In this document: positions 6,298 through 17,820 of the stretch, one piece after another
Layout of the letters: each line of letters opens with the position of its first letter
How positions within the stretch are numbered: the first letter of the stretch is position 1
Assembly: GCA_016650175.1 (NCBI GenBank)
Contig: JAENWG010000004.1
Location: forward strand, 1 to 64,000
DNA from: Peptostreptococcaceae bacterium
GTDB lineage: Bacteria > Bacillota > Clostridia > Peptostreptococcales > Anaerovoracaceae
Direction: 5' to 3'
DNA length: 64,000 nucleotides
The notes under the pieces: model-generated
What the model saw: only the letters and a program-made list of their open reading frames with translations
Told to the model about the DNA's origin: nothing
The model's database searches: none
Made by a program: the position numbers and the translations under genes

Positions 6298-6326
6298 TTG
6301 AATCATAAATTTTAATATTGTATAAT
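6298..6326 (+). promoter_or_regulatory. Sigma-A-type promoter for the 6357-11052 operon
   Basis: TTGAAT-N17-TATAAT. Confidence 0.7.
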
Positions 6327-6356: not shown

Positions 6357-6899
6357 ATGTCGTATCTATTGATAATACTAGCTTTCGTTCTATTTGTTCT
6401 ATACGATTACAACCAAATAATGAATAATTATAAATTATTAAGATCTTTCTTCTTTTTAGGCGTATTTGTTATAGCATCAGTAACAACTGGAGTATTAGTT
6501 ACTTCAGAAGCTACTTTTAATTTTGCTTATCCTATACGTGTTATTTGTTATATTTCTTGTGCGCTTTGTTTCTTACTCTTAATTCACACGTTGTTCTTTG
6601 CAATTCCGTTTGAAGCTGCCTATATAAAAGGCTCTAAGCAAAAAATCTGCAACACTGGAGTTTATTCTTTATGCCGACATCCTGGAGTACTTTTTTTATC
6701 AGGAACTTACTTATTTGCCGGCCTTGCAACAGGAAGAATAGAGATTTTATGGCTATGCCTAGTGATAACATTTTGTAATATCTTTTATGTAACTATTCAA
6801 GACAGGTACACTTTTCCTGTTTTGTTTGACAACTATAGCGAATACCAGGAATCTACACCATTTTTAATTCCTGACTTTCAACGACACGAGGAGAAATAA
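6357..6899 (+). CDS. ICMT/PEMT-like (NnrU-like) membrane methyltransferase
   Basis: Multi-TM, C-terminal GVYSLCRHPGVLF...QDRYTFPVLFDNYSEYQESTPFLIP, typical of isoprenylcysteine methyltransferase-like proteins. GAAAGGA RBS before ATG at 6357. Confidence 0.75.
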   Translation: MSYLLIILAFVLFVLYDYNQIMNNYKLLRSFFFLGVFVIASVTTGVLVTSEATFNFAYPIRVICYISCALCFLLLIHTLFFAIPFEAAYIKGSKQKICNTGVYSLCRHPGVLFLSGTYLFAGLATGRIEILWLCLVITFCNIFYVTIQDRYTFPVLFDNYSEYQESTPFLIPDFQRHEEK

Positions 6900-6901
6900 T
6901 C

Positions 6902-8518
6902 ATGAAATACGGAGACAAACTAAAAAACCAATCCGGCGATGCTTTATGGAATGAATATTGTGATTTTTTAAATTTATCAATAAGTGATTTTATGGCTATT
7001 CAAACGCGATTAATTAGAGAACAGCTACCCGCTTGGTTAAACAGCGAACTTGGAAGTTCCATCGCTAACGCAAGAATTCCCAAGGATTTAACAGAATTCA
7101 GGGATATGATACCGTTAACCTCTTACGACGACTATTCAGATATATTATTAAATAAAAACGAATCTGCCCTACCTGAAAAGCCTGTTATTTGGCTTGAAAC
7201 AACTTGGGAAGGCGGGAAACACCCTATAAAAACCGCTCCTTATACACAAGGAATGATAGATGTGTTTCGTAACAACTTATTATCCGTAACAACGCTATCT
7301 TCTACAAACAAAGACAAACGATCCAGGTTGAAAAGTTGTGATAATGTTCTTTTCGGACTTGCTCCGCTTCCTTATGTTACAGGGCTTTTCCCTCTAGTTT
7401 TCGAAGAAGAGTTAAATCTTAATTTCTTGCCACCTGTATCCGATGCACATACTATGAGCTTTGGAGACCGAAACCGTAAAGGGTTCGCTATGGGAGTTGA
7501 ACAAGGAATTGATGCTTTTTTCGGATTAAGCAGTGTAATTCACTATATGACAAAATCTTTTGAAAATGCTAGTGGTTCTAAATCTGGTAGCAAACATAAG
7601 CTAACACCTAAAATGGCTTTGCGTTGCCTTAACGCAAAATTGGTGTGCGAAAAAGAACAAAGGAATATGCTTCCTAAAGATATCTTTAAGCTTAAAGCCT
7701 TGTTATGTGCTGGCACCGATACATCTTCATACAAAGATTATTTAGAAGAAGCTTGGGGAATCGCTCCTCATGAGGTGTTTGCTGGTACTGAACTATCTAT
7801 GATAGCTACCGAAACACATACTCATAACGGTTTAGTACTATTCCCGGATGTTTGTTTGTATGAATTTATACCTGAATCAGAATATCAAAAAAACAGATAC
7901 AACCCTAATTATGTTCCTAAAACTTGTTTAATTGACGAAATTGAAGAAGGCCATAATTACGAACTGGTTATTACCTCCCTAAAGGGCGGTGCGTTTGCCA
8001 GATATCGTATGGGTGATATGTTTAGTTGTTATAGCAAAACTGGAGATACATCTACATCTCTGCCTCTTTTGAAATATGTAGATAGAGCACCAACCGTTAT
8101 TGATATTGCAGGTTTTACTCGTATTACCGAAAAATCTATTACTGATGTTATAGATTTGTCAAGATTACCTATAGAAGGTTGGTTTGCAAAAAAAGAATAT
8201 GATAATAACAAAACACCATATCTACATTTATATATTGAAATCAAAGCTGAAGATTTGGATTCCACGGCTTTAAGTTGTCAACTTTTACAGGACCATTTAA
8301 AAGCTTATTTCAAATTCTTTGATACTGATTATAACGATCTTGAGAAAATGCTAGGTATAAAGCCTCTAGTCATAACTGTTATAAAGTCCGGTTCTATATC
8401 CTTATATAAGGAATATACTGGAAACAGCATTGATAAAATGAATCCTAAAACACACGATATTAGAACTTTCCTTAAATGGATTGAATTGCACGAAAAAGAC
8501 GGGAGGATATTAGTATGA
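6902..8518 (+). CDS. GH3-family (auxin-responsive promoter GH3-like) acyl-adenylating/acyl-amido synthetase
   Basis: LTSYDDYSDILLNKNESALPEKP, GTELSMIATETHTHNGLVLFPDVCLYEFIPESE, YELVITSLKGGAFARYRMGDMFSC resemble GH3 proteins. Confidence 0.8.
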   Translation: MKYGDKLKNQSGDALWNEYCDFLNLSISDFMAIQTRLIREQLPAWLNSELGSSIANARIPKDLTEFRDMIPLTSYDDYSDILLNKNESALPEKPVIWLETTWEGGKHPIKTAPYTQGMIDVFRNNLLSVTTLSSTNKDKRSRLKSCDNVLFGLAPLPYVTGLFPLVFEEELNLNFLPPVSDAHTMSFGDRNRKGFAMGVEQGIDAFFGLSSVIHYMTKSFENASGSKSGSKHKLTPKMALRCLNAKLVCEKEQRNMLPKDIFKLKALLCAGTDTSSYKDYLEEAWGIAPHEVFAGTELSMIATETHTHNGLVLFPDVCLYEFIPESEYQKNRYNPNYVPKTCLIDEIEEGHNYELVITSLKGGAFARYRMGDMFSCYSKTGDTSTSLPLLKYVDRAPTVIDIAGFTRITEKSITDVIDLSRLPIEGWFAKKEYDNNKTPYLHLYIEIKAEDLDSTALSCQLLQDHLKAYFKFFDTDYNDLEKMLGIKPLVITVIKSGSISLYKEYTGNSIDKMNPKTHDIRTFLKWIELHEKDGRILV

Positions 8519-11052
8519 CACACGAAGTCCCTTATATTCTAATACCTACCTTAGCTTTATTATGTTATGCAGTACTTGTACTCGCTATGCTATCTGCAAA
8601 AAAAAACAGAATAATTTATGCTTTCATATTATACTTAACCGTATTCATACTATGGACTGGTGGTTCTGTCTTAATGAGACTTCAACTATATCCGGGATAT
8701 GAATTCTGGTATCAAGTATCAATACTAAGTGTATTTGCTCTTGCCTTTTTCCTATATCACTTCTTGTATTGTTATTTAGATTATAAAAATCATATAATTC
8801 ACCTCCTTTGGGGTGTTTTAACACTGTTATTATTAGTATTTACTTATTTTGAGTGTTTTTTACCTATACCAGAACTTGAATTTGTAGATGGTAATAACGT
8901 CTTTGTATATACTTCTGACTGGAAATTAATATTCCCCACAATACTTGTAGTCGCAATAATTGTAAGTATTGTTAAAATGCTATATTATGGTTATAAGAAA
9001 AATGATTATGCTGTACTCACACTTAAACCTTTTCTTATAGGTAGCTTGTTGCTAGTAGTAGGAAACATTTTGTCTGTATTGCCTGGAAATATTTTCCCTT
9101 GGGATACTCTTTCCGGTATTATAAATGCTGGATTGGCATTTTATGTTTTAGCAAAAAGAAGAATTTTTAAGCTAACTTTATTGATATCAAAATCCGTTTT
9201 GGTTTTTATAAGTCTTATAATAACTAGCATACTAAATGTTTCCTTAATCGACTTTACCAGTAATCTTATTGATGGGTTTTTCCCCTTCTTAACTGAAGAT
9301 AAAGTGGCAGTTCAATGTATAATCTTCGGATTATGTTTGATACTTATTTATAAAGTATGTCTAACAGGCACCAACTTACTTTTCATGAAAAAAGAACAAC
9401 TAAACAAAGATATATTAAAAACTTTCAGTTCAGAAGTATCAAAAAGCCTTGAGTCTAAAACTATACTAAAATTAACCGAGAAAGTTCTTTTAGAAGGATT
9501 GCCTGTAAACCGCGTTTACTTTTTGATTTATGATGCACTGAAAGATCAGTATACTACTACTCATTCTTCTAATCCTCTTACAGAAAAAACTCTCGCTTTT
9601 GCAGCTGATGCTCCATTAATTCAGAGCTTAAAAGCGCACGATCAGTGTATGTTCATTAAAGATATCAAGAAAACCACTATCTACAGAGCTATGTGGGAAA
9701 CAGAAAAACGAATTATACACCAATATTCTTTAGCAGCAATTGTTCCATTAAGTGATGATAATAACGCGCTTTTTGGTTTCATTGCTTTAGGCGAACAAGA
9801 TTCAAAATCAAACTTTGATTATGATGCAGTCAACTTCATGGAATCTATAAGAGCTATTTCAACTATAGGACTACGAAATGCTACCAAATATGAAAAAGCT
9901 GAAATCGAAGCTGTAACAGACTCGTTAACAGGTCTATATAACAGAAGATACTTTATCAATTCACTAGAAAACATTATGCATTCTAATACGTATGAATCAG
10001 TAGCTCTTCTTTTAATCAGCATTGATGATTTTAGATTATACAACGAACTTTATGGTTCATTAGAAGGTGACATAGCCTTAGAAAACTTATCTTTAAGAAT
10101 TAAGAATACTATAGGAGATTCTGGCATTGCTGGAAGATTTAGCGGCAAAGAATTTGCAATATATTTACCCAATAAATCTCATATACAGGCTCTACAACTA
10201 GCACAAAGTTTGCAGACTCAAATGACTGAACTTAATAATAAAAATGTTAATGTTAAATTAAAAAATCTTACATTTAGCGCTGGTATTTGTGTGTATCCGT
10301 ACAGTGCGGTGACATTTAATGAGTTAGTAACTAACACAAATATGGCCGTTTATCAAGCTAAGCATTCAGGTAAAAACAGAATAATTACTTACCAAAAGGA
10401 ATCTAAGACTTCTACATACTTAGGAAATTCTACTACTGCTAATAAACGCTCTGGAGCTTACGAAGAATATGCTTCAACTATATATGCTCTTACTGCTGCC
10501 ATTGATGCTAAAGACCATTATACGTTTAATCACAGTCAAACCGTTGCTACTTATGCATCGGTATTAGCTAAGCACATAGGATTAAATTCGGCACACGTGG
10601 ACTTGATTTACGAAGCAGGTCTCCTTCATGACATAGGAAAGATTGCTATACCTGAAAACATTTTATCCAAACCAGGCAAGCTTAATGATGAAGAATACGT
10701 CGTTATGCAATCTCATGTAGTTAATTCTATAGAAATTATTAGGCATTTACCTAATCTGGATTATTTGATACCAGCAGTAACTGGTCATCACGAAAGATGG
10801 GACGGTAAAGGTTATCCTAGAGGCATTTCTGGTAAAGAAATTCCTATAGGTGCTAGATGTCTTGCATTGTCCGATTCATTTGATGCCATGCTATCAGAAC
10901 GCGCCTATAAAGAGCCTTACAGTTTGGAATTCGCTTGCAATGAGATAGTCAAAAAGGCAGGACTTCAATTTGATCCAGAATTAGCTTTCACCTTTGTGGA
11001 TTTAATTAAAAAAGGCGTCATATATGTAAATATGCCGCGAACAATAGAATAA
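8515..11052 (+). CDS. 7TM (histidine-kinase 7TM type)-GAF-GGDEF(degenerate)-HD-GYP protein, probable c-di-GMP phosphodiesterase
   Basis: Seven N-terminal TMs, GAF-like region, DSLTGLYNRRYF...GRFSGKEFAIYLP, then HDIGKIAIP...HHERWDGKGYPRG. 4-nt ATGA overlap with upstream gene. Confidence 0.92.
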   Translation: MTHEVPYILIPTLALLCYAVLVLAMLSAKKNRIIYAFILYLTVFILWTGGSVLMRLQLYPGYEFWYQVSILSVFALAFFLYHFLYCYLDYKNHIIHLLWGVLTLLLLVFTYFECFLPIPELEFVDGNNVFVYTSDWKLIFPTILVVAIIVSIVKMLYYGYKKNDYAVLTLKPFLIGSLLLVVGNILSVLPGNIFPWDTLSGIINAGLAFYVLAKRRIFKLTLLISKSVLVFISLIITSILNVSLIDFTSNLIDGFFPFLTEDKVAVQCIIFGLCLILIYKVCLTGTNLLFMKKEQLNKDILKTFSSEVSKSLESKTILKLTEKVLLEGLPVNRVYFLIYDALKDQYTTTHSSNPLTEKTLAFAADAPLIQSLKAHDQCMFIKDIKKTTIYRAMWETEKRIIHQYSLAAIVPLSDDNNALFGFIALGEQDSKSNFDYDAVNFMESIRAISTIGLRNATKYEKAEIEAVTDSLTGLYNRRYFINSLENIMHSNTYESVALLLISIDDFRLYNELYGSLEGDIALENLSLRIKNTIGDSGIAGRFSGKEFAIYLPNKSHIQALQLAQSLQTQMTELNNKNVNVKLKNLTFSAGICVYPYSAVTFNELVTNTNMAVYQAKHSGKNRIITYQKESKTSTYLGNSTTANKRSGAYEEYASTIYALTAAIDAKDHYTFNHSQTVATYASVLAKHIGLNSAHVDLIYEAGLLHDIGKIAIPENILSKPGKLNDEEYVVMQSHVVNSIEIIRHLPNLDYLIPAVTGHHERWDGKGYPRGISGKEIPIGARCLALSDSFDAMLSERAYKEPYSLEFACNEIVKKAGLQFDPELAFTFVDLIKKGVIYVNMPRTIE

Positions 11053-11056
11053 CTTT

Positions 11057-11091
11057 AAGGACCTAATAACTAATTATTAGGTCCTTTTTTT
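11057..11091 (+). terminator. Intrinsic terminator
   Basis: AAGGACCTAATA-N6-TATTAGGTCCTTTTTTT. Confidence 0.75.
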
Positions 11092-17640: not shown

Positions 17641-17678
17641 AACCAAAAAAGACACAGTAAGTCAAACTTACTTGTGTC
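17641..17678 (-). terminator. Expression-platform terminator of the glycine riboswitch
   Basis: Minus strand GACACAAGTAAG-TTTGA-CTTACTGTGTC-TTTTTT. Confidence 0.8.
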
Positions 17679-17820
17679 TCTGTCCTTTAACCTGAAAGAT
17701 TTACTTCTTCGGTGGTTTTACTCTCTCCAGAGGTTCGTCCAAATATGGTCCTTTTGCCTGAGAGTTTACTACAACTTCCCCTTCGGCGTCATTTTCTGAT
17801 CTCTCCCATATCCATCATCC
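17678..17820 (-). promoter_or_regulatory. Tandem glycine riboswitch (two aptamers)
   Basis: Minus strand: GGGAGAGATC...CGCCGAAGGGG...AAACTCTCAGGCAAAAGGACCATATTTGGACG, then CTCTGGAGAGAG...CACCGAAGAAG...ATCTTTCAGGTTAAAGGACAGAG, directly upstream of gcvT. Confidence 0.93.

Follow-up and report, generated by a model that had tools for sequence, protein, structure and literature searches.

In the DSF systems, the synthase RpfF, which makes a fatty acid signal, is paired either with RpfR or with RpfC/RpfG (PMC4698668, PMC5391125). A separate line of work has described OlsH, a GH3-like enzyme of Singulisphaera that converts free fatty acid, ornithine, and ATP to N-acyl ornithine, and homologues of which have been reported mostly in Bacteroidota, Pseudomonadota, and Planctomycetota (PMC12493201). 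N-acyl amino acid methyl esters are known as AHL analogues from Roseobacter, for which no candidate synthase genes were found (PMC11580390).

The locus described here lies in a 64,000-nucleotide stretch of DNA from a Peptostreptococcaceae bacterium (the window), and consists of three genes (the triad) followed by a terminator. To our knowledge, few small-molecule lipid signals have been described from Gram-positive gut bacteria, and the ligands of 7TM c-di-GMP receptors are mostly unknown. The features of the locus are as follows:

6298-6326, + strand: promoter-like site TTGAAT-17-TATAAT, agreeing with the consensus at 10 of 12 positions, the joint top score in the region
6357-6899, + strand: gene 1, an open reading frame (ORF) for an ICMT/PEMT-superfamily membrane methyltransferase-like protein of 180 aa
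6902-8518, + strand: gene 2, an ORF for a divergent GH3-family adenylating enzyme of 538 aa
8515-11052, + strand: gene 3, an ORF for a receptor with HisKA_7TM-like, GAF, GGDEF, and HD-GYP regions
11057-11086, + strand: Rho-independent terminator with a 13-pair stem and a T run, 3' of gene 3

The original prediction had proposed that these genes form one tightly coupled operon running from a single promoter to a terminator. On re-checking, the coordinates of the three ORFs, the 2-nt gap between genes 1 and 2, and the 4-nt overlap (ATGA) between genes 2 and 3 were exact, and the terminator stem with its T tail was convincing by eye. The promoter part of the proposal fared less well: the site is present, but the region contained 12 promoter-like sites compared to 23.6 in shuffled sequences, which is fewer than expected by chance. 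Because the scan of the region did not exceed the shuffles, the site at 6298-6326 is not significant alone, and its assignment as a promoter rests on position and not on statistics. The flanks of the operon are unrelated to it, with a GNAT acetyltransferase gene upstream and, on the other side, the convergent lipoamide dehydrogenase and lipoate ligase genes of a glycine-cleavage operon. A tandem glycine riboswitch is located 5' of a glycine-cleavage operon (17678-17818 of the window, - strand). The idea that the module is plasmid-borne was rejected because there was no plasmid match.

The recurrence of the triad was evaluated by seeking homologues of gene 2 in samples of the window's family, order, class, and phylum and in named GTDB contigs, and by scanning the neighbourhoods of the homologues with models of all three proteins; many of the source genomes are probably MAGs. 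A close homologue of gene 2 was found in 39 of 351 genomes of the window's family, and the named GTDB carriers were Aminicella lysinilytica, Mobilibacterium timonense, Baileyella intestinalis, Christensenella sp. UBA1685, Intestinibacillus massiliensis, and two MAGs. The triad is thus carried by named isolates that have strain numbers, among them Aminicella lysinilytica DSM 28287, Baileyella intestinalis, and Mobilibacterium timonense. It was found that 64 of 68 distinct loci have the order methyltransferase, GH3, receptor on a single strand, with median gaps of 2 and -4 nt, in hosts that fall under 16 numbered family labels across Bacillota and come from gut and environmental sources. Therefore, the predicted recurrent linkage of GH3, ICMT-like, and HD-GYP genes was borne out, and the neighbourhood survey, which could have refuted it by showing homologues of gene 2 apart from both partners, did not do so. 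The four exceptions were three loci that reach a contig edge and one second copy (L138) that lacks the methyltransferase gene, in a genome that also holds a full triad (L137). At this second copy (L138:7236-9790), a 309-aa protein without a Pfam match stands in place of the methyltransferase.

The possibility that every GH3 gene resides in such an operon was rejected, because seven canonical GH3 loci (L078-L082, L147-L148) have other neighbours. In related Clostridia, canonical GH3 genes, singly or in pairs, occur with RimK-like ATP-grasp ligases in a recurrent operon (L148:1495-9407 and L081:1-8004). The L148 operon includes two ABC exporters by domain content, and L081 has matching genes; the arrangement resembles a cluster for making and exporting an amidated product. 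A third canonical locus (L082:4716-11107) has two GH3 genes, an AMP-binding enzyme, and a protein with an NRPS-type condensation domain in one operon.

The converse test gave the same picture. The membrane domain of the receptor, used alone, matched 25 of 199 family genomes with no weaker matches, and the methyltransferase profile matched the same 25 genomes at E values of 7e-40 or better, the next matches being 6e-12 or worse. All 25 were GH3-positive, as judged within the gene 2 list. The hypergeometric probability of such an overlap of 25-genome sets by chance is 2.5e-32, with relatedness ignored. Chance adjacency of the three genes was therefore rejected, as the clustering in the loci and the shared genomes is far beyond chance. 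Correlation of the gene trees over 55 loci (Mantel test, no phylogeny correction) gave r values of 0.96 for GH3 and receptor, 0.73 for GH3 and methyltransferase, and 0.74 for receptor and methyltransferase, compared to a permuted maximum of about 0.27. The linkage of the triad is near-obligatory, and the simplest reading of these comparisons would be that the triad is acquired, lost, and passed on as a single unit.

The ICMT-like identity predicted for gene 1 was upheld by comparison of its profile with solved structures, in which 4A2N (ICMT) was matched at an E value of 1.7e-5 over 149 positions and nothing else was significant. The Pfam PEMT match of gene 1 itself (E value of 4e-4) was under the cut-off, as single sequences of this family often are: among the homologues, Pfam ICMT was matched in 3 of 27 and PEMT in 9 of 27. 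Gene 1 has an RHPG motif at residues 107-110 (6675-6686), of which R107, H108, and P109 are invariant among homologues, and residues D149, F153, Y160, and Y163 are conserved. The AlphaFold model had a pLDDT of 83 and its top Foldseek match was the eukaryotic ICMT 5V7P (E value of 0.15, probability 0.99); the Foldseek list, with E values of 0.15 and worse (none below 0.001) at probabilities of at least 0.9, also holds a 5-alpha-reductase. Judged by profile similarity and the RHP motif, gene 1 is a member of the ICMT/PEMT/DUF1295 membrane-methyltransferase superfamily. It shares the RHP motif and a C-terminal Y..Y...P pattern with 4A2N, the ICMT of Methanosarcina acetivorans, but differs from it in that QD replaces the conserved EE region and RHPG is present instead of RHPxY. 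ICMT methylates the carboxyl group of a lipid-modified cysteine, and other members of the superfamily methylate amines, phospholipids, and thiols; the fold is shared with reductases.

The assignment of gene 2 to GH3, for which the original prediction had named a non-GH3 Pfam result as grounds for withdrawal, was confirmed: gene 2 has a Pfam GH3_M match over the cut-off (E value of 2.7e-11), and homologues matched GH3 and GH3_M in 30 of 30 cases and GH3_C in 17 of 30. When the homologue profile was compared with all solved structures, ten sequences were matched, all of them plant GH3 amido synthetases (best E value of 1.2e-12), and the view that gene 2 is not GH3 was rejected on these grounds. 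The AlphaFold model of gene 2 was of low confidence (mean pLDDT of 59.7), and the active-site geometry was therefore left uninterpreted; the best Foldseek match was GH3.12 (1.2e-12), and PaaK CoA ligases were also found. The nucleotide-binding motif I is altered, with TTWEGG at residues 100-105 in place of the canonical SSGT[ST]xG, and a search of the window's own genome with the GH3 N-terminal model alone misses gene 2 at an E value of 0.001. Most homologues have TTWExG at this position, and early-branching ones have TSGKxG or TSGRSG, closer to canonical. Motif II (canonical YGxSE/TE; GTE at residues 295-297) and motif III (canonical YRxGD; RYRMGD at residues 367-372) are present, and GTE and RYRxGD are invariant in 30 sequences. 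Because canonical motif I is not found, gene 2 is placed, on sequence grounds, as a divergent clade of the GH3 superfamily and not as a canonical GH3 enzyme, and adenylation by gene 2 cannot be taken for granted despite the invariance of motifs II and III.

The altered motif I, the PaaK matches, and the weak NCBIfam matches of gene 2 to acyl-CoA ligase models would also fit a different chemistry. In that case, the GH3-like protein would be a ligase of the acyl- or aryl-CoA type, or else a regulator without activity, the methyltransferase would have a thiol or amine as its target, and something other than an acyl amide ester would be formed. We think this improbable, as the solved-structure profile matches GH3 only, GH3_C is found in over half of the homologues, and the many invariant columns of the family, among them the ATP-binding motifs II and III, argue against an inactive protein.

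Gene 3 was predicted to encode a 7TM/HD-GYP receptor, and both parts were found; the GAF and GGDEF domains between them had been overlooked. The domains are as follows:

8515-9402, + strand: N-terminal membrane region, HisKA_7TM-like, with about 7-8 hydrophobic segments by hydropathy
9412-9864, + strand: GAF-like linker domain, approximate limits, from homologue matches
9910-10380, + strand: GGDEF domain (PF00990, E value of 1e-34) with the degenerate signature SGKEF
10498-10983, + strand: HD-GYP c-di-GMP phosphodiesterase domain (PF13487, E value of 3.7e-37) with intact HDIGK and HHERWDGKGYP

HisKA_7TM (PF16927) was matched in 19 of 27 receptor homologues (best E value of 1.9e-15) and GAF in 17 of 27, with the window protein itself unmatched by HisKA_7TM at an E value of 0.1 and by GAF. 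The HD-GYP motifs, HD(I/V)GK and HHExxDGxGYP, are intact in the window receptor and, among homologues whose C-terminus is complete, in nearly all; L170, in which they are absent, and L172, which has HDIGL, are exceptions. The window receptor departs from the GGDEF signature [GSA]G[DE][DE]F, and a survey of 55 loci showed that position 3 is lysine (once arginine) across one large clade that includes the window, whereas GG[DE]EF or SGEEF is intact in 14 of the 55 loci, all of them outside this clade. Lysine or arginine at this position should abolish cyclase activity, and throughout the same clade the HD-GYP motifs are intact where the C-terminus is complete. An early-branching receptor in a single-contig genome (L170:8488-10467) has an intact GGDEF and lacks HD-GYP in an otherwise standard triad. 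Therefore, the original suggestion that the receptor lowers c-di-GMP is consistent with the window lineage, with its degenerate GGDEF and intact HD-GYP, but not with the early-branching GG[DE]EF loci or the one GGDEF-only receptor. The common denominator of the receptors would be c-di-GMP, apparently shifted towards hydrolysis in the lineage of the window. About a dozen GGDEF domains exceed the cut-off in the window genome, which makes it probable that this organism uses c-di-GMP. No PilZ effector was found in this genome (78% complete), and a search of it for the c-di-GMP-I riboswitch gave no match, with the control likewise matching nowhere.

A clue to the substrate came from the flanking genes. 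FakB, the protein that binds fatty acids on behalf of the kinase FakA, belongs to the DegV proteins (PMC9136124, PMC10138225). The sole recurrent fourth gene is of the DegV family (PF02645, with E values no worse than 4e-58 for the four proteins checked) and lies directly upstream of the triad in ten loci, one of them a fragment (L007); in nine of the ten, it overlaps or abuts the methyltransferase gene. A FakA-like gene is next to the DegV gene, in divergent orientation, in seven of the ten loci (L060, L063, L064, L065, L069, L071, and L075), and encodes a short protein of 301-398 aa. The 302-aa protein of L063 matched Pfam Dak2 and FakA-like_M but had no match to the C-terminal FakA domain; by BLAST, the remaining six proteins group with it. 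In one genome (G210), the FakA-like gene was the only Dak2 gene found, and its role may therefore be in fatty acid uptake at large and not in the operon alone. The DegV-bearing loci present in the GH3 tree form one clade; DegV and FakA-like genes are confined to one subclade and are not beside the window operon. In the comparison of flanking genes, no further neighbour was shared among distant loci. The DegV/FakB-type and FakA-like neighbours point to a fatty acid as the acid used by the module, at least in the DegV clade.

The same neighbours bear on a reading in which the receptor senses an exogenous carboxylic acid, such as a host or dietary fatty acid or an aryl acid, and the GH3 and ICMT-like enzymes switch the response off by conjugating and methylating this acid. 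FakA/FakB-type genes handle exogenous fatty acids, and the best-known role of plant GH3 enzymes is hormone homeostasis by conjugation, as in the inactivation of auxin. The operon order and the near-obligatory pairing are, however, equally compatible with synthesis, and no uptake or hydrolase gene recurs beside the triad; we regard such ligand inactivation as rather unlikely. It is also unlikely, in our estimate, that genes 1 and 2 make a bulk structural aminolipid and that the 7TM receptor gauges membrane composition and adjusts c-di-GMP accordingly. That reading draws on the service of the GH3-like OlsH in bulk ornithine lipid synthesis (PMC12493201) and on the action of some methyltransferase-superfamily members on phospholipids (Pfam PEMT), but no OlsI-like acyltransferase family recurs in the flanks of the triad, and lipid-synthesis genes are, as general knowledge has it, seldom tied one-to-one to a dedicated c-di-GMP receptor.

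With the gene identities, the operon, the linkage and co-inheritance of its members, and the c-di-GMP output domains established, we propose instead that the triad is an undescribed signalling module of Bacillota, which probably makes a fatty-acid-derived molecule and senses it via a membrane protein that controls c-di-GMP. In its specific form, as a self-contained lipid-like module with a GH3 conjugate, an ICMT-like methyl cap, and a 7TM receptor that sets c-di-GMP, the proposal has in our judgement an even chance of being correct. In the inferred order of reactions, the GH3-like enzyme would activate a fatty acid with ATP, the acid probably being presented to it by a DegV/FakB-type carrier in one subclade, and would couple the activated acid to an amine, for which an amino acid is the likeliest candidate. 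With SAM as methyl donor, the ICMT-like membrane enzyme would next convert the exposed carboxyl to a methyl ester. From OlsH-type GH3 chemistry and ICMT carboxyl methylation, the predicted product is an N-acyl amino acid methyl ester, neutral and soluble in the membrane, or a closely related compound. As the inferred ligand of the receptor, this product would bind to the 7TM bundle within the membrane, and the GAF and degenerate GGDEF domains would relay binding to the HD-GYP phosphodiesterase activity and hence to the local c-di-GMP level. The product might act between cells or in cis; as no exporter is linked to the triad, cell-to-cell signalling is without direct support. Because candidate enzymes are encoded beside the receptor, its ligand could be sought by expression of the two genes and detection of the product. 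If true, the module would tie GH3 chemistry, known from plant-hormone conjugation and recently from bacterial ornithine-lipid synthesis, to the control of c-di-GMP.

In comparison with known systems, the plant GH3 acyl acid amido synthetases (JAR1, GH3.12, and GH3.1) belong to the sole solved-structure family matched by gene 2, but they are longer (575-620 aa), differ in motif I, and do not share its bacterial signalling context. OlsH, likewise bacterial and GH3-like, is close to gene 2 in length (526 aa) and uses ATP to link a fatty acid to an amino acid, whereas it keeps motif I as TSGTTQG, has the acyltransferase OlsI alongside, and makes a membrane lipid. A search of titles and abstracts in the open-access literature found no description of the triad or of GH3 and HD-GYP or ICMT and GGDEF linkage; the kind of system, a fatty-acid-derived signal controlling c-di-GMP, is already known. 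By analogy, the nearest functional analogue of the triad is the DSF family, in which the signal synthase gene is likewise linked to a c-di-GMP-turnover receptor (the HD-GYP protein RpfG or the GGDEF/EAL protein RpfR). The triad differs in having GH3 and methyltransferase genes in place of the crotonase-like RpfF, and a single 7TM-GAF-GGDEF-HD-GYP protein without a histidine kinase; beyond the c-di-GMP domains, neither synthase nor receptor is homologous. No crotonase was matched in the three genes of the triad, and flanking families do not recur across distant loci. The Roseobacter N-acyl amino acid methyl esters are the compound class predicted here, from a different phylum and with no gene link. 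It is conceivable, and we suggest it tentatively, that the GH3-ICMT pair and its dedicated 7TM-GAF-GGDEF-HD-GYP receptor represent a new class of Bacillota signalling, cell-to-cell or cell-autonomous, carried as a unit-inherited cassette, in which the N-acyl amino acid methyl ester would be a neutral cousin of the AHLs.
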